A stretch of DNA of 21,292 bases from a virus, in the IMG/VR virus record IMGVR_UViG_3300037502_000806, positions 1 through 21,292 of that record. One strand, 5' to 3'. The notes under the pieces were generated by a model, which saw only the letters and a list, made by a program, of their open reading frames with translations, made no database searches and had not been told where the DNA came from. Shown in pieces: positions 2,586-18,742 of this stretch. Positions within the stretch are counted from its first letter, which is position 1. Every line of letters starts with the position of its first letter. The position numbers and the translations under genes were made by a program.

Positions 2586-3359
2586 ATGATTGAGAACGAA
2601 CTAGCGGGTGCGCCCGCGCCGGAACCGGAGGCCACGGCCGCTTCCGCGCCCGAAACTGACAATTCTTCGCCGGAACCGAAGCCTGCGGAGGCGCCCAAAA
2701 CCTTCACGCAAGAAGAGTTGGATGCCATCGTAAGCAAGCGTCTCGCAAGAGAGCAACGGAAATGGGAACGCGAGCAGAAGTCCAAGGCTCCGCCGCCTCC
2801 GCCAATCCCGGCGGAACCGCTGAAGCCGGACGACTTCACCAACGCCCAGGCGTATGCCGACGCGATGGCCGAACGCAAGGCGCAGGAACTCCTCGCCCAG
2901 CGGGAAGCCGAAGCCGAACGGGCCGCAATGCTCGATGCGTATCAGGACCGTGAGGAAGAAGCCCGGACCAAGTACGACGACTTTGAACAGGTCGCCTACA
3001 ATCCAAAGCTTCCCGTCACGGAAACGATGGCGCAGACCATTCAGGCATCCGAGATCGGTCCCGACGTCATTTACTGGCTAGGGTCCAACCCCAAGGAAGC
3101 CGAACGGATTGCGCGTCTCAACCCGCTCTTGCAGGCACGGGAAATCGGAAAGATTGAGGCTCGTCTGAGCAGCAATCCTCCGGCCAAAAAGACCTCAACC
3201 GCCCCGGCGCCTATTGCTCCGGTGACGGCCCGCACCTCCGGTGCGCCTGCATACGACACCACCGACCCGCGTTCTGTGAAGAGCATGTCAACGTCGGAGT
3301 GGATCGAGCAGGAAAGGCTGCGCCAGATCAAGAAGTACGAGGCACAACGTCGACGCTAA
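2586..3359 (+). CDS. Capsid assembly scaffolding protein
   Basis: 257 residues, ATG preceded by an AAAGGTGA ribosome binding site at about 2573. The composition is typical of phage scaffolds: a Pro/Glu/Ala-rich disordered N-terminus (residues 1-38), a long charged helical stretch starting 'FTQEELDAIVSKRLAREQ', a further helical centre rich in Glu and Ala, and a short basic C-terminal helix ('QERLRQIKKYEAQRRR'). In P22 the basic C-terminal helix-turn-helix binds the coat protein, and the C-terminus here suits that role. It lies immediately upstream of the P22-type coat gene, the standard order. It would direct procapsid assembly and then leave the shell. No protease motif is seen. The role comes from composition and position rather than from a specific signature. 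Confidence 0.88.
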   Translation: MIENELAGAPAPEPEATAASAPETDNSSPEPKPAEAPKTFTQEELDAIVSKRLAREQRKWEREQKSKAPPPPPIPAEPLKPDDFTNAQAYADAMAERKAQELLAQREAEAERAAMLDAYQDREEEARTKYDDFEQVAYNPKLPVTETMAQTIQASEIGPDVIYWLGSNPKEAERIARLNPLLQAREIGKIEARLSSNPPAKKTSTAPAPIAPVTARTSGAPAYDTTDPRSVKSMSTSEWIEQERLRQIKKYEAQRRR

Positions 3360-3382: not shown

Positions 3383-4848
3383 ATGTCTAACTCACTTCTT
3401 ACAATTGACATGATCACCCGGAAGGCTCTGGAGATTAACTAATTCGGTCTCCCTTGGGGGTAACCCCTCGAAAAATAACTGTGTGAATTCGGTGGACATC
3501 ACATAACTGTGACAACACCGAGCCAAGCCCGAAAGGGAAGGCGTAACGACTATCCCGAAAGGGAGTAGGGTCAAGCGGCCCGAAGCGCACAGCCCCTCTA
3601 CGGAGGGTGAAGAGATAGTCTGCTCTGCATGGTGACATGCAGCAGTTCCGAAAGGAACGGATTGGGTTTAGCGAACCTGATTGAACATCTGGCCTTGAGA
3701 ACAACCTGGTGATCACCCGCAACGTCAACCGCCAGTACGACGACAGCTTCGCCGTCGAAGGCGCCAAGATCGGCTCCACCCTCCGCATCCGTCTGCCCGA
3801 CCGTGCGCTGGTGACCGACGGTGCTGCCCTTCAGGTGCAGGACGACAACGAGCAGTTCACGACCCTCACCGTTGCTTCGCAGAAGCACATCGGTGTGAAC
3901 TTCACGTCTGCCGAACTCACCATGCAGCTCGACGACTTCGCTGATCGTGTGCTCAAGCCGCGTATCTCGCAGCTTGCGTCTTCCATCGACGCTGACGTCG
4001 CCAACGCCTACAAGTCGATCTTTTCGTCTGTTGGCACCCCCGGCACGACCCCGTCCACTTCGCTTGTCCTTCTTCAGGCCCAGCAGAAGCTGAACGAGTA
4101 CGCTGCCATGATGCCGAACCGCTATGCGACCGTGAACCCGGCCGCCAACGCGGGTCTGGTCGAGGGCATGAAGGGCCTCTTCAACCCGGTCGACACCATC
4201 TCCCGTCAGTTCAAGAATGGCATGATGGGCGAAGGCGTGCTGGGCTACGAAGAAATCAACATGTCGCAGTCCATCAAGCAGCACACTTGCGGTACTCGCG
4301 CCGCCACGGGTGCTACGGTGAACGGCAACGCCTCGGAAGGCGCCACGACCATCACCCTTGCTTCGGCCGGCAACGCGCTGACCTTTGCAGTGGGCGATGT
4401 GTTTACGGTGGCCGATTGCTTCTCGGTCAACCCGCAGACCCGCGAAAGCACTGGTTCGCTTCAGCAGTTCGTCGTGACCGAGGCCAACACCTCGACCGCT
4501 GGCGGCGCTGTGACGCTCAAGGTGTCTCCGGCTCTGTACTCGCCGTCTAACGCTCTGGCAACCGTCAGCACCCTGACCATCACTGGTAAGGCTGTTACGT
4601 TTGTTGGCGCTGCTTCGACGCAGTACCCCCAGAACCTGATCTACCACAAGGATGCCATCTCGTTTGCCACGGCGGACCTGCTGCTTCCGAACGGTGTCGA
4701 TATGGCCTCCCGCCAGGTCCATAACGGTATCTCGATGCGTGTCGTGCGTCAGTACGACATTAACAACGACCGCCTCCCGTGCCGTATTGACGTACTGTAC
4801 GGATATTCGGTCATTCGTCCGCAGATGGCCGCGCGTCTCTGGGGCTAA
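3383..4848 (+). CDS. P22-type major coat protein, interrupted by a group I intron
   Basis: The gene is split: exon 1 is 3383-3435, exon 2 is 3693-4848, and the joined product is 402 residues. Exon 1 starts at an ATG behind an AAAGGA motif and encodes a typical coat N-terminus (MSNSLLTIDMITRKALEI). Read straight through, it hits TAA at 3440. Exon 2, in another frame, continues 'LENNLVITRNVNRQYDDSF', the conserved next segment of this family, and then 'EGAKIGSTLRIRLP'. It ends in a P22-coat-like '(R)IDVLYGYSVIRPQMAARLWG'. Joining U3435 to C3693 rebuilds an Ile codon and an uninterrupted frame. A naive gene call starts at GTG 3709, which has no good ribosome binding site and would remove the conserved N-arm. 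The protein forms the icosahedral shell (HK97 fold). P22 coat is 430 residues, so the length fits. Confidence 0.9.
3436..3692 (+). ncRNA. Self-splicing group I intron (IA-like), no ORF
   Basis: 257 bases between the coat exons. Pairings read directly: P1, exon GGAGAU (3430-3435) with GUCUCC (3447-3452), including the diagnostic U3435-G3447 wobble; P2, 3456-3459 with 3464-3467, GUAA loop; P3, 3479-3485 with 3586-3592; P4, 3489-3494 with 3516-3521; P5, 3499-3503 with 3508-3512; P6, 3522-3524 with 3540-3542, extended by 3528-3530 with 3535-3537, GAAA loop; P7, GACUA 3548-3552 with UAGUC 3616-3620; P7.1, 3553-3556 with 3561-3564; P7.2, 3568-3572 with 3577-3581; P8, 3594-3598 with 3603-3607, UACG loop; P9, 3625-3631 with 3636-3642, GUGA loop; a P9 extension, 3645-3649 with 3654-3658, GAAA loop. 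The last intron base is G3692. P7.1/P7.2 between P7 and P3' are typical of subgroup IA. No convincing P10 is seen. No homing endonuclease fits inside. Confidence 0.93.
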
Positions 4849-6237: not shown

Positions 6238-7799
6238 TGCAGACGCCGATCCTCGGATCGTCCTACGTCGCCCGCAGCGTTAACGTTGCGGCCAATCGGT
6301 GTATCAATCTTTACCCTGAAGTGGTGCCAGAAGGCGGCAAGCAGGCGGCCTTTCTGAGCCGCGCGCCTGGGCTGCGGCGTCTGGCTACGGTCGGTCCCGG
6401 CCCTATTCGCGGTCTATGGGCACCGCAGATCACGGGATCAGATGGCTACGTCGTATCGGGGACCGGGCTATATAAGATCGACCGATCATACAACACCACT
6501 TTTATAGGCACGATCAACGGTACGGGACCAGTGTCGATTGCCGACAACGGCACGCAAATCTTCATTGCGGCGAACCCTGACGGGTACATCTATAACATGA
6601 GTACGGGCGCGTTCGCGCCGATTGGTGACCCAGATTTCCCCGGCGCATCTACGGTTGGCTATTTGGATGGTTATTTCGTCTTCAACCAGCCCAATAGCCA
6701 GAAGGTATGGGTAACGAGCCTGCTTGACGGCACCAGTGTGGACCCGCTGGACTTTGCCAGCGCCGAAGGCGCGCCGGACCAGTTGATCTCGGTAAACGTC
6801 GATCACCGCGAAGCGTGGCTGTTTGGCACCAGCACGATTGAGGTATGGTACAACGCCGGAACGGCCGACTTTCCGTTGCAGCGCATCCAAGGTGCTTTTA
6901 ACGAACTGGGTTGCGCCGCGGTGTATTCTGTCGCCAAGCTGGACAACACGCTGTTCTGGCTGGGCGCTGACGCCCGTGGCAACGGCGTCGTCTACCGGGC
7001 CAATGGTTACCGGGGCGAACGCGTGTCAACCCATGCCATTGAGTTCGCCATCCAAAGCTACAGCACGATTTCTGACGCAATTGCCTACACGTACCAACAG
7101 GAAGGCCACAAGTTCTATGTGCTGACCTTCCCGTCCGCCAACGCCACTTGGGTGTACGACACTATTACAGGCGCCTGGCATGAGCGTGCCAGCCTGCGCA
7201 ACGGTGAGTTTGCGCGTCATCGTTCCAACTGCCAGATGAACTTCAACAATGAAGTCGTGGTGGGCGATTTTGAGAACGGCAACATCTACGCGTTCGATTT
7301 GGACGTCTACAGCGACGATACCGCGCCGCAGAAATGGCTGCGCTCTTGGCGTGCGCTGCCGACCGGCGAGAACACACTGCGCCGTACAGCACAGCACACA
7401 CTGCAATTGGACTGCGAAACCGGCTTTGGCTACGTAGACGCAGCGTTGGCTGCGCAACCGTCCTATATCGGCCCTGCCGCAGAACTGCTGGATCAGTCGG
7501 CAGGCACAGCCATCGACTTTCTTAACGACGGATACGCAATCGCGGACGCAGACACGCCGCCCTACACGATACCCACGCCGCAGGTCATGCTGCGGTGGTC
7601 CGACGACGGCGGCCACACCTGGTCGCGCGAACATTGGGCTTCGCTGGGGGCGCAGGGTCAATACGGCAAGCGTGTGTTCTGGCGTCGGCTGGGCATGACG
7701 CAGAAACTGCGTGACCGCGTATATGAGGTATCCGGTACGGACCCGACAAAAATCATCATTCTTGGCGCGGAGTTGATCTTGAATGGCACTGCTGCCTAG
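6237..7799 (+). CDS. P22 gp10-like packaged-DNA stabilisation protein (tail hub)
   Basis: 520 residues from ATG 6237, which overlaps the preceding TGA (TGATG); a TTG at 6234 adds one residue and is less likely. The N-terminus 'LGSSYVARSVNVAANRCINLYPE' and the repeating short blade-like motifs ('GLWAPQITGSDGYVVSGTGLY', 'WVYDTITGAWHERAS') match the Phage_stabilise family of P22 gp10 (472 residues). In P22 this beta-propeller-containing protein follows gp4 on the portal and plugs the head, forming the tail hub to which spike and needle attach. It sits right after the gp4-like gene as in P22. The last 17 bases overlap the next gene. Confidence 0.88.
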   Translation: MQTPILGSSYVARSVNVAANRCINLYPEVVPEGGKQAAFLSRAPGLRRLATVGPGPIRGLWAPQITGSDGYVVSGTGLYKIDRSYNTTFIGTINGTGPVSIADNGTQIFIAANPDGYIYNMSTGAFAPIGDPDFPGASTVGYLDGYFVFNQPNSQKVWVTSLLDGTSVDPLDFASAEGAPDQLISVNVDHREAWLFGTSTIEVWYNAGTADFPLQRIQGAFNELGCAAVYSVAKLDNTLFWLGADARGNGVVYRANGYRGERVSTHAIEFAIQSYSTISDAIAYTYQQEGHKFYVLTFPSANATWVYDTITGAWHERASLRNGEFARHRSNCQMNFNNEVVVGDFENGNIYAFDLDVYSDDTAPQKWLRSWRALPTGENTLRRTAQHTLQLDCETGFGYVDAALAAQPSYIGPAAELLDQSAGTAIDFLNDGYAIADADTPPYTIPTPQVMLRWSDDGGHTWSREHWASLGAQGQYGKRVFWRRLGMTQKLRDRVYEVSGTDPTKIIILGAELILNGTAA

Positions 7800-15314: not shown

Positions 15315-15541
15315 ATTGGTTGGAAGTTGCAGCGATTGTCGTGCTGCTGGCGGGCGTTGCTGCGGGAGGGTTCCTCGTCGCGCAACGCCCGTCTTTTTGG
15401 TTTGGCCTTCTTACCGTGATGTTCCGGGCAGCGTTGCCCACCCTCCTAAAACGGATGCCTCCCGAGCAGGAGCAGGCGTGGAGGGACTGCCTTCGTCGTG
15501 GGGGCGAATGGGATCACGTTCGACGGCGTTGTAAGCGTTGA
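15311..15541 (+). CDS. Small membrane protein closing the lysis cassette
   Basis: 76 residues from GTG 15311, which overlaps the holin stop (GTGA); a TTG at 15290 is a weaker start. It has an N-terminal membrane helix (residues 4-22, 'LEVAAIVVLLAGVAAGGFL'), a second moderately hydrophobic stretch, and a C-terminal domain 'CLRRGGEWDHVRRRCKR' with two cysteines. The coupled start and a plausible conserved end favour a real gene. It could be an inner-membrane spanin-like or holin-regulating protein; no lipobox is present. A terminator-like hairpin (15349-15398) lies inside its coding sequence, and its last 131 bases overlap the convergent gene on the other strand. Confidence 0.68.
   Translation: MNWLEVAAIVVLLAGVAAGGFLVAQRPSFWFGLLTVMFRAALPTLLKRMPPEQEQAWRDCLRRGGEWDHVRRRCKR
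15349..15398 (+). terminator. Terminator-like hairpin inside a coding sequence
   Basis: CGGGCGTTGC (15351-15360) and GCAACGCCCG (15382-15391) form a perfect 10-bp stem, extendable outward by a G-U and a G-C pair, with a 21-base loop and a following TCTTTTT tract (15392-15398). It has the form of an intrinsic terminator for plus-strand transcription. It is about 40 bases beyond the holin stop, inside the last lysis gene and just ahead of the convergent minus-strand operon's end. On the minus strand there is no T tract. Confidence 0.6.
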
Positions 15542-15776
15542 CGATGAGCTGCGCATAGCCCGCAATGTCGCGCCAGTGGTCCACCTCATGCGGGTTGCCC
15601 GACAAGATGCGGCCGATCTTGCTGGCGATCATCTCCAGCGTCTCGCGTTGCGTGTCGTCAAGGATCTTCCAGTTCTTGCCCCGCCGCATCGCGTCCTTGA
15701 GCGTCTGCGCGGTCATGGCGACATCGTAGAAGTCGCCGTGGGTCTTCTGGCGTTCGGCCAACAAATCATTTACCAT
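15411..15776 (-). CDS. DUF6378-like phage protein
   Basis: 121 residues from ATG at 15776 (reverse strand), preceded by AGAGGATCA; longer upstream starts lack this support. The core 'LAERQKTHGDFYDVAMTAQTLKDAMR' followed by 'QRETLEMIASKIGRILSGNP' and 'DHWRDIAGYAQLIVNAYNA' (about residues 5-80) matches my memory of the DUF6378 family, common in phages next to replication genes. The His/Asp/Glu pattern in an all-helical fold recalls MazG-type or other helical nucleotide-handling proteins, but this is only a resemblance. The C-terminal 40 or so residues are Pro/Arg-rich and are encoded opposite the last lysis gene. It is the last gene of the minus-strand operon. Confidence 0.8.
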   Translation of the reverse strand: MVNDLLAERQKTHGDFYDVAMTAQTLKDAMRRGKNWKILDDTQRETLEMIASKIGRILSGNPHEVDHWRDIAGYAQLIVNAYNAVERDPIRPHDEGSPSTPAPAREASVLGGWATLPGTSR

Positions 15777-15957
15777 TGATCCTCTCCAACAGTTCCTTCC
15801 GTTCCCGCTGCGCCCGTAGCGTCGTGTAGCGTTGATGGATGCGAACAAGGTACGTCGGCCGCTTGTGGACCTTCACCTCCTCGTCCAGCATCGCCTTGAC
15901 CTGGTCCTCCGTCCGCATAGACAGCAGCACGTTCAGGTCGTGCCAAGCACTTTTCAT
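15766..15957 (-). CDS. 63-residue charged phage protein
   Basis: The ATG at 15957 overlaps the helicase stop by four bases on the reverse strand, and its end overlaps the next gene by 11 bases, so it is embedded in a coupled operon. The product is helical and highly charged ('MLDEEVKVHKRPTYLVRIHQRY', 'LRAQRERKELLERING'). I do not recognise it. The strong basic/acidic helix pattern might suit binding to the helicase or nucleic acid, but no motif proves this. Confidence 0.68.
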   Translation of the reverse strand: MKSAWHDLNVLLSMRTEDQVKAMLDEEVKVHKRPTYLVRIHQRYTTLRAQRERKELLERINGK

Positions 15958-17285
15958 CCTCTCAACTCCTCCATGGCGACCTCGGACAACGCGCGCTTGT
16001 CGCGGAGCGCGGTTAAAATCTTATCGTCAATCGTGTTATTGGTGATGAGTAGGTACACCCACACATCATGTTCTTGACCGCTGCGGTGCAACCGGCCGAT
16101 CACTTGTTCGTAGTCCGTAAAACTCCACGGCAAGGTCAGAAAGACCATGTGATGCCCGCCGTGCTGCAAGTTCAAGCCAAATTGTGCGCTCTTTGGATGG
16201 ACGGCCAGCAGCGGTATCTTGCCCGCGTTCCAGCGTTCAACCACACCAGCGCCGTCGTCCAGCGTCCACAGCGTGCCGGGGTAGCGGCGTTTCAGTTCCG
16301 CCAACTCCTCGATGAAGTTGTAGACGATCAAGGTGTTCGCCCGCTGGTTGCCTTCCAGCACCTCGTCCAGCAGGTCGAAGCGGTGCGTCGAAAACCAGTG
16401 CGGGGCCTTGACCGTCTTGAACTGTCCGGGGCTGTCGGACGCGACGGTCTGGCTGTCGTAGACCCAACCGCCCGCCATCTGCTGGAGTTTGGTCGTGACC
16501 GCAGCGGCCGACAAGGCGGTGATGTCCTGCCACATGAACTCCTTCTTCATCCTCTCGTATGGCTCACGGTCGGGCATGTCGCAGCGCATCTCGACGACGT
16601 GGCACGGCGGCAGCTTGTCCTTATAGACGCCAGGCTCCAGCACGTAGGTCGCCGGGCGGATGCGGGTCATCACCTGCTCCAGCGCCCCTTTGCGCGGCAT
16701 CCACTCGCCAAAGTCGCGGTTGATGCAAACGAAGTACTGCTGCATGAACGCGCCCTTTGTGCGGCCCAACAGCTTCTCGTCGATCACCTTGCATTGGCCG
16801 AAGACGTCCTCAAGGCCGTTCGACGTGAACGAGCCAGTTAGGCCCCAGCGCACCTTGAAGCGGTCGATCACCTTGAGGAGCGCTTTGAACCGCTTGCCTG
16901 ACGGGTTCTTGAGCCGGGTCAGTTCGTCGAAGACGATCCCGTCAAAGGGCACATCGGGCAGTTTGTCGAGGTTGTCATAGTTGAACACGACCACGTTTGA
17001 CTTGGCCTCGAAGGCCGCGCGGCGTTCGGCGGCGGTCCCGATGGCCACCGACATGCGCAAGCTGGGCGCCCACTTGGTGCGCTCGACCGGCCAGACGTCC
17101 GTACAGACGCGCTTGGGCGCCACGACCAGCCACCGCTTGACCGCGCCGTCGCGCAGCATCTCGGCCATGGCCGTGAGCGTGATAGCCGTCTTGCCGGCGC
17201 CGACGGGCGCCAGGATCATGGCGCGGTCGCGTTCGTAGAGGAAGGTGACGGCGTCGTTTTGGTATGGTCTAAGCGTGAGGCCCAT
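15954..17285 (-). CDS. SNF2-type DNA helicase/ATPase
   Basis: 443 residues. Superfamily 2 motifs are in order: 'LRPYQNDAV' Q-like motif (5-13), Walker A 'APVGAGKT' (26-33, Lys32), motif Ia 'WLVVAPKRV' (52-60), Walker B 'DELTRLKN' (120-127, DEL in place of DEAH), motif III 'WGLTGSF', and C-terminal motif VI 'QVIGRLHRSGQ' (394-404). The final motif is characteristic of SNF2-like phage helicases, which are much shorter than cellular remodellers. Such helicases usually sit beside a VRR-NUC gene and act in phage DNA replication or recombination, translocating on duplex DNA with ATP. The start codon lies within the VRR-NUC gene (70-base overlap), so both come from one message and their amounts are probably linked. 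Confidence 0.93.
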   Translation of the reverse strand: MGLTLRPYQNDAVTFLYERDRAMILAPVGAGKTAITLTAMAEMLRDGAVKRWLVVAPKRVCTDVWPVERTKWAPSLRMSVAIGTAAERRAAFEAKSNVVVFNYDNLDKLPDVPFDGIVFDELTRLKNPSGKRFKALLKVIDRFKVRWGLTGSFTSNGLEDVFGQCKVIDEKLLGRTKGAFMQQYFVCINRDFGEWMPRKGALEQVMTRIRPATYVLEPGVYKDKLPPCHVVEMRCDMPDREPYERMKKEFMWQDITALSAAAVTTKLQQMAGGWVYDSQTVASDSPGQFKTVKAPHWFSTHRFDLLDEVLEGNQRANTLIVYNFIEELAELKRRYPGTLWTLDDGAGVVERWNAGKIPLLAVHPKSAQFGLNLQHGGHHMVFLTLPWSFTDYEQVIGRLHRSGQEHDVWVYLLITNNTIDDKILTALRDKRALSEVAMEELRG

Positions 17286-17548
17286 TCATCTATCTCCGTT
17301 TTTGACCATAATACCGTGTAGTTTTGTCCGAGTTCCTTCATGCGGGCCGCGAACAGCTTCTGGAGCGGTGCCAGCCGACCGCCGGGCGCCTTGAGTTCCA
17401 CGAACCACACCGACCCGTCAGGCAGACAGGCGATGCGGTCGCTGACGCCGCGATGGTTGGGCGAACGGAACTTGTAGGCCGTCCCGCCCATGCGCTCGAC
17501 CGTCCAGACGAAATACTTTTCGATGTGACTTTCACCGCCCATGCCCAT
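17216..17548 (-). CDS. VRR-NUC domain nuclease
   Basis: 110 residues from ATG 17548; a GTG at 17551 adds one residue. It is a single-domain PD-(D/E)xK nuclease of the VRR-NUC family: conserved 'SHIEKYF' (Glu10), 'RSPNHRGVSDRIA' (catalytic Asp37), 'WFVELKAPGGRL' (Glu51-x-Lys53) and 'LQKLFAARM' (Gln63). Phage versions cut structured DNA such as junctions or flaps and are normally paired with an SNF2 helicase, which follows here with a 70-base overlap. The basic, Thr/Ser/Pro-rich end after residue 92 is the overlapping part. First gene of the minus-strand operon, reading away from the divergent promoter region. Confidence 0.92.
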   Translation of the reverse strand: MGMGGESHIEKYFVWTVERMGGTAYKFRSPNHRGVSDRIACLPDGSVWFVELKAPGGRLAPLQKLFAARMKELGQNYTVLWSKTEIDEWASRLDHTKTTPSPSSTNATAP

Positions 17549-17565
17549 CACTTAACAAACATCGC

Positions 17566-17617: not shown

Positions 17618-18742
17618 ATGGCACAACACTCAAACATCGTCGGCGGTTCGACCGCCAAGCGCGTCATCAATTGCCCCGGCAGCGTGGCGCTGGTTCAGAA
17701 GGTGCCGCCCAAGCCGTCCAGCAAGTACGCCGACGAGGGCACGCTCCTGCACCACGTCATCGCGGCCGTGCTGGAGACGGGCAAGGCGCCGGAAGACTTC
17801 CTTGGTACCGAGTACAACGGCGTTGAGTTGACGGGTGACCTGATGGAGCGGAAGCTGCTCCCTGCGCTTGCTGCGCTGGACGAGATCGACCCCGACAAGG
17901 TGATGGAATATGAGGTCGAGAAGGTTGTTGGTTTTGGCAACGTACTCCCTGGCGTTTTTGGTTCCGCCGATCTGGTTGGTCGTATTGGTGACCGAGGCAT
18001 TCTGGTGGACTGGAAGTTTGGTGACGGCGTGGCTGTCGAAGCCGAAGAAAACCCGCAGGCGCTCTTTTACATTGCCGCCGCCCTACACACGGCGTCAACG
18101 TCTTGGGCGTTCAGGGACACTGAGGCGATTGATGTCTACATCGTTCAGCCGCCGTTCGTGAAGAAGTGGACGACCGATCTCGACCGCGTGCGTCGCTTCG
18201 AGGCCGATCTGGTCCTCGCCGTGCGCGCCGCCGAGCAGCCGGACGCACCGCTCAAGACGGGCGACCACTGCCGTTGGTGTGCCGCCAAGACGATCTGCCC
18301 GCTGGTCAACGGGGCCGTGGCCCGCGCTGACCGCGCGGCACTCAAGACGGTCAACGTCGATGACTTGGCCGACGCGCTCGACAAGATCGACGTGCTGGAG
18401 GGCTGGATCAGGGACGCCCGTGAGATGGCGCAGACGCTGCTGGAGAACGGTGTGGACGTGCCGGGCTACAAGCTGGCCGCCAAGCGGGCCACCCGTCAGT
18501 GGACGGACGAGGCTGCGGCCTTGACAGCGCTGCGCGAAGCAGGCTGTAGTGCAGAAGAATTGACGGAGTTGAAGTCTCCGGCGCAGGTCGAGAAGGTGCT
18601 GAAGAAGCGCAAGATCGACATGCCGGAGGGGCTGATCACCTCCGTCTCATCGGGTAACACGCTGGCCAGTGCGGATGATCCGCGCCCCGCCGTGTTGCGG
18701 GTTGGCCACGTACTCAAGGCCGCCCTTGGTAAGCTAGTCTAA
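17618..18742 (+). CDS. DUF2800 RecB/Cas4-like nuclease
   Basis: 374 residues, ATG behind AGGAGA. It is a PD-(D/E)xK exonuclease of the Cas4/AddB/RecB type. The motifs are 'GTLLHHV' (41-47, His), 'GSADLVG' (Asp118), 'ILVDWKFG' (Asp131-Trp-Lys133) and 'NPQALFY' (the QxxxY motif, Gln147/Tyr151). One N-terminal cysteine (Cys19 in 'INCPGS') and three C-terminal ones ('HCRWCAAKTICP', Cys218, Cys221, Cys227) match the four-cysteine iron-sulfur arrangement of Cas4-type nucleases. Such genes start the DUF2800-SSB-PolA replication module of many phages. A role in end resection or recombination-dependent replication is likely. First gene of the plus-strand operon. Confidence 0.9.
   Translation: MAQHSNIVGGSTAKRVINCPGSVALVQKVPPKPSSKYADEGTLLHHVIAAVLETGKAPEDFLGTEYNGVELTGDLMERKLLPALAALDEIDPDKVMEYEVEKVVGFGNVLPGVFGSADLVGRIGDRGILVDWKFGDGVAVEAEENPQALFYIAAALHTASTSWAFRDTEAIDVYIVQPPFVKKWTTDLDRVRRFEADLVLAVRAAEQPDAPLKTGDHCRWCAAKTICPLVNGAVARADRAALKTVNVDDLADALDKIDVLEGWIRDAREMAQTLLENGVDVPGYKLAAKRATRQWTDEAAALTALREAGCSAEELTELKSPAQVEKVLKKRKIDMPEGLITSVSSGNTLASADDPRPAVLRVGHVLKAALGKLV

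Follow-up and report, generated by a model that had tools for sequence, protein, structure and literature searches.

A compact group I intron in the predicted P22-type major coat gene of an environmental virus

The interrupted coat gene and its intron

The window, by which we mean the whole stretch of DNA analysed, is an IMG/VR virus record of 21,292 bases and a metagenome fragment. Its head genes include a putative scaffolding protein gene and, adjoining it downstream, a gene in two exons that profile matches identify as a P22-type major coat gene (Table 1). Joining 3435 to 3693 gives an open frame of 402 amino acids from the ATG at 3383. The protein family profile PF11651 covers residues 1-402 of this product over profile positions 1-423 of 423 at 132.9 bits, compared with 116.2 bits for exon 2 by itself, in agreement with the original prediction that this junction yields a full coat protein of 402 residues. 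Exon 2 matched the PHROG 283 major head protein (4.9e-65), and the coat matched the P22 gene 5 protein in PDB (5l35, E 3e-11). Elsewhere in the window, genes for an SNF2-like helicase (15954-17285) and a VRR-NUC-like nuclease (17216-17551) occupy 15411-17551 on the minus strand, opposite to the head genes, and are adjoined by a DUF2800/PD-(D/E)XK gene (17618-18742).

Between the two exons lies a complete and compact group I intron, IA-like in its anatomy, as the original prediction had proposed; the identification is confirmed by a covariance model, empty sites in relatives, the reading frame and covariation. The covariance-model search suggested with that prediction matched RF00028 at 3426-3642, over the full model, with 72.8 bits against a gathering score of 50 (E 4.9e-17), and this was the sole Rfam match within the whole window. 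The model ends at P9 (3642), and assignment of the 3' end to 3692 rests on the empty sites, the frame, the terminal G and the covariation of P9.1 and P9.2. All of the pairings that had been claimed were found, from a six-pair P1 with a U.G at the splice site through a 7-bp P3, P7 GACUA/UAGUC and P7.1/P7.2 to the P9 series and the terminal G. P7.1 and P7.2 lie between the 5' strand of P7 and the 3' strand of P3, which is the subgroup IA arrangement, and the group I pattern of an exon 1 ending in a U paired to a guide G and an intron ending in G is present. P2 contains mismatches in the window. P10, by inspection, is weak there, with one clear pair, and L139 is able to form four.

Table 1 Features of the window and of two further contigs with an intron or a probable intron in P22-type coat genes. 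Positions are those of the window unless a contig is named.
Feature	Position	Strand	Remarks
Putative scaffolding protein gene	2586-3359	+	adjoins coat gene upstream; PHROG 8865 head scaffolding, 1.3e-29
Predicted coat exon 1	3383-3435	+	ATG at 3383; 17 codons and 2 bases; ends GGAGAU, the 5' strand of P1
Group I intron, 257 nt, no ORF	3436-3692	+	RF00028, empty-site breakpoints, covariation
In-frame UAA stop	3440-3442	+	unspliced message would end after 19 codons
Internal guide GUCUCC	3447-3452	+	pairs with exon 3430-3435 as P1 (GGAGAU/GUCUCC), U.G at splice site
P3, 7 bp	3479-3485 / 3586-3592	+	encloses P4, P5 and P6
P4	3488-3494 / 3516-3522	+	within P3
P5	3499-3503 / 3508-3512	+	within P3
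P6	3522-3524 / 3540-3542	+	within P3
P6a, GAAA loop	3525-3539	+	same place holds ~510 nt with HNH gene in 74 relatives
P7	3548-3620 (GACUA 3548-3552 / UAGUC 3616-3620)	+	guanosine site
P7.1	3553-3564	+	between P7 strands; 3 covarying pairs
P7.2	3568-3581	+	between P7 strands; 4 covarying pairs
P8	3594-3607	+	between P7 strands
P9 series and 3' end	3625-3692 (P9 3625-3642, P9.1 3645-3658, P9.2 3660-3682, terminal G 3692)	+	
Predicted coat exon 2	3693-4848	+	last base of codon 18 to stop; PF11651, PHROG 283, 5l35
Codon-33 intron, L007	2276-3006		further loci among L454-L490
Third insertion, L082	~1755-2023 (MW202674.1 ~16823-17091)		near codon 87; unannotated

The boundaries were determined from intronless relatives. 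Four of these (L002-L005) encode coats 94-95% identical in amino acid sequence to that of the window, and the joined exons align with three of them (L002, L004 and L005) in one stretch of ~2.0 kb at 83-85% nucleotide identity; when the unspliced sequence is used, the alignment breaks exactly at 3435/3693. Alternative splice pairs nearby likewise leave the frame open, so the frame by itself cannot set the boundary and it is the empty sites that do so. A near-identical contig (L006, 99%) begins inside exon 2, and no confirmation of the intron was possible from it.

The intron had a folding z-score of -4.1, and none of 200 shuffles was equally stable. Covariation was assessed in 49 distinct intron cores from which the endonuclease part had been removed, giving 75 pairs in 14 helices. 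Standard pairs made up 96.7% of cells and changes on both sides were observed in 41 of the 75 pairs, compared with 32-41% paired and 6-15 double-changed pairs when partners were slid by 1-3 positions, and with up to 88% paired and at most 29 double-changed pairs in shuffles. P7 is invariant across the 49 cores and thus uninformative for covariation.

A family of introns at codon 18

A pattern consisting of P7 and the start of exon 2 was used to search viral contigs, and 111 stretches matched. Both exon ends could be mapped at 77 IMG/VR loci, the window included, and at every one the intron splits codon 18 after its second base; the exon 1 motif MITRKALEI is conserved across these loci. Intron length was 747-768 nt at 74 of the 77 and 248-257 nt at three (L089, L108 and the window). 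Each of the 74 long introns has an intact ORF in L6, 174-184 aa in length, whose ATG sits in the 3' strand of P5. This ORF gave weak but consistent matches to HNH endonucleases (PHROG 2255, E 5e-9), its CxCC, SIDH and CMNCQ motifs are conserved, and its median dN/dS was 0.12, a rough value with dS near saturation. All 77 introns have an in-frame stop no more than 37 nt from the 5' splice site, and such early stops would hold ribosomes off the intron core.

The original prediction had missed that introns of this kind usually bear an HNH gene and that the window's is a shortened form. No ORF was found within its 257 nt, and the encoded endonuclease of a mobile intron is therefore absent from this copy. 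L6 of the short forms is a hairpin, CCC-GAAA-GGG in the window, CCGG-GUAA-CCGG in L108 and CUC-GAAA-GAG in L089, and the RNA core is still paired in all three; the P6a hairpin of the window reads as a likely scar of the lost endonuclease gene. In a tree of intron cores, well-supported branches impose a separate change on each of the window, L089 and L108. The simplest reading of these placements, with the direction of change taken to be loss, is that the endonuclease gene was probably lost independently at least three times.

Every one of the 46 distinct contexts with the intron has GAG at codon 17, against 44 of the 148 without it (two of those rows had no readable context). Pairing to the guide needs GAG, although co-conversion or shared descent could also contribute to the excess. 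Intronless coats mostly have GAA at codon 17, which, by comparison with window 3430-3435, would break P1; GAA could be a silent way of evading homing or splicing, or could reflect mere descent. Contigs chosen only by a window-like exon 2 comprised 11 with the intron (the window's locus included), 87 empty and 2 cut by a contig edge, counts that are rough only, the sample not being independent.

At its gathering score, RF00028 failed to match the full-length HNH-bearing introns of L123, L085 and L150, presumably owing to the 510-nt insert in L6. The codon-18 core had no exact match among 84,980 bacterial and archaeal genomes, and hence no intron-bearing prophage pointed to a host; the intronless coat relatives in bacterial and archaeal genomes are mostly in proteobacterial MAGs. 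An intron in L317 (~6700-6900, reverse complement) shares the P7-P9 sequence of the codon-18 family and has an endonuclease-like ORF upstream in an apparent L6. It was rejected as a member, as it shares the P7-P9 motif only and sits in a different gene.

Other intron sites in P22-type coat genes

A scan for a second site returned 37 stretches, ~33 of which (the contig of L007 among them) have a different group I intron at codon 33; four others (L455, L464, L465 and L480) were rejected as chance matches or empty sites. The codon-33 introns have the signature CAGT/...G/AYGAY, measure 735-738 nt in nearly all cases and matched RF00028 in 12 of 12 tested. Their endonuclease, as read in L007, is an HNH_3 protein (PF13392). 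They resemble the window intron in belonging to group I and interrupting the same coat family, with an HNH gene in the codon-33 form, but differ from it in site, endonuclease and sequence.

A third insertion is present in MW202674.1 (L082), a complete circular podovirus genome in which the coat is annotated as two CDSs with a small ORF between. Its anatomy includes P1 GUGGAU/GUCCAC, P3 UUCUCUC/GAGAGAA, P8, P7 GACUA/UAGUC and an exon match, and the joined exons encode STQFHVD-TQFTTQDL. No Rfam match to this insertion was obtained even at E<=1; on its anatomy it is a probable group I intron, less certain than those at the other two sites.

Because introns are found at codon 18 (77 contigs), at codon 33 (~33) and probably near codon 87, it follows that group I introns have repeatedly targeted P22-type coat genes in environmental podoviruses. 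The codon-18 and codon-33 sites are not outstanding in conservation, as the entire N-terminal stretch is conserved.

Splicing, mobility and comparison with known introns

The locus is very probably explained by a mobile intron that has lost its endonuclease and splices itself out by the usual group I mechanism. In the late transcript, exogenous GTP at P7 would cut after U3435, at the U.G of P1, and the 3' OH of exon 1 would then attack after G3692, so that GAGAU is joined to CCUUGAG and the 402-aa coat is restored; without splicing, translation would stop at 3440-3442. The ancestor would have been the mobile form, whose L6-encoded HNH homing endonuclease would cut intronless coat alleles and so cause the intron to be copied in. 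In the window copy the endonuclease gene would have been lost and P6a resealed by a GAAA-capped hairpin. Such a copy would be kept by splicing well, and its own mobility would need an endonuclease in trans or be gone.

A benefit to the phage, either in the timing of coat synthesis or in resistance to a competitor's endonuclease, might be added to this explanation without replacing it. In three copies that lack the endonuclease the fold has remained intact, and the intron occupies and thereby shields the cut site, an analogy being the PhiPA3 interference described in PMC11620839. However, the homing cycle is expected to pass through a transient stage of introns without an endonuclease, and just 3 of 77 introns are of this kind; a benefit is unlikely. 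The broader proposal of a hot spot with at least three intron lineages (codons 18, 33 and ~87), together with phage takeover of the intron for purposes such as immunity to coat-cutting endonucleases of competitors or coat timing, is similarly doubtful.

It is highly improbable that the intron is dead, the ribozyme no longer splicing and the coat being made from an internal GTG at 3709 without its first 23 residues. An ORF does begin at that GTG and the endonuclease gene has already gone from the window intron, but every core helix pairs, exon 1 is intact and fits a conserved N-terminus that is nearly invariant among 182 intronless coats, and in three separate lineages a well-paired hairpin has replaced the HNH gene. 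An assembly artefact or chimera at the junction can be dismissed almost entirely, for although the window is a metagenome fragment and no independent contig spans the junction, the boundaries agree to the base with those in 76 other contigs and the core differs from all 76 yet stays paired.

Among known introns, that of Klebsiella phage RCIP0099 (L084) resembles the window's in having ~76% nucleotide identity over the core and no long ORF, and scored 70.6 bits against RF00028; its host gene, in contrast, encodes a family A DNA polymerase (PF00476). The intron of Streptococcus thermophilus phages interrupts a lysin gene in phages of a Gram-positive host, unlike the coat gene intron of the window. 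With its three deletion derivatives it provides full and shortened versions at one site, like the codon-18 family, according to a title that PMC8541194 cites.

According to PMC12350094, group I introns of phages favour genes of nucleotide and DNA metabolism, a preference whose reasons are called mysterious. The original proposal that a coat gene makes an unusual host is only partly right, since introns are common in IMG/VR P22-type coats and a paper of 2013 describes spliced group I-like introns, one in mycobacteriophage LittleE, where it interrupts the major capsid gene, and others in tail genes (PMC3706429, which also cites a capsid intron of lactococcal phage Tuc2009). Like the window intron, that of LittleE (Cluster J) is group I-like, lies in a major capsid gene, follows a U, ends in G and has a mobile form that bears an endonuclease. 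It differs in coat family and host, in its length of 819 bp, in a LAGLIDADG-like gene on the opposite strand and in a subgroup left unclear in PMC3706429; that paper reports efficient splicing by RT-PCR and protein, whereas splicing in the window is predicted. The literature searched, most subscription journals lying outside its coverage, contained no account of an intron in a P22-type coat gene.

What is new is the codon-18 site in 77 contigs, with HNH genes in 74, the probable repeated loss of the endonuclease and the further coat sites. The wider pattern, in which one coat family has three sites and alleles that range from empty to degenerate, merits a specialist's attention but is not categorically new. 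In practical terms, P22-type coats can be split or shortened in annotations, as in the two coat CDSs of MW202674.1, and phage surveys based on coats can miss intron-bearing alleles. For the biology of these viruses, repeated invasion of a highly expressed structural gene, at what are probably three sites, extends across many environmental podoviruses. Close relatives carry empty, endonuclease-bearing and endonuclease-less alleles, a set on which the homing cycle can readily be tested and which is equally suited to asking how splicing copes with heavy late expression.
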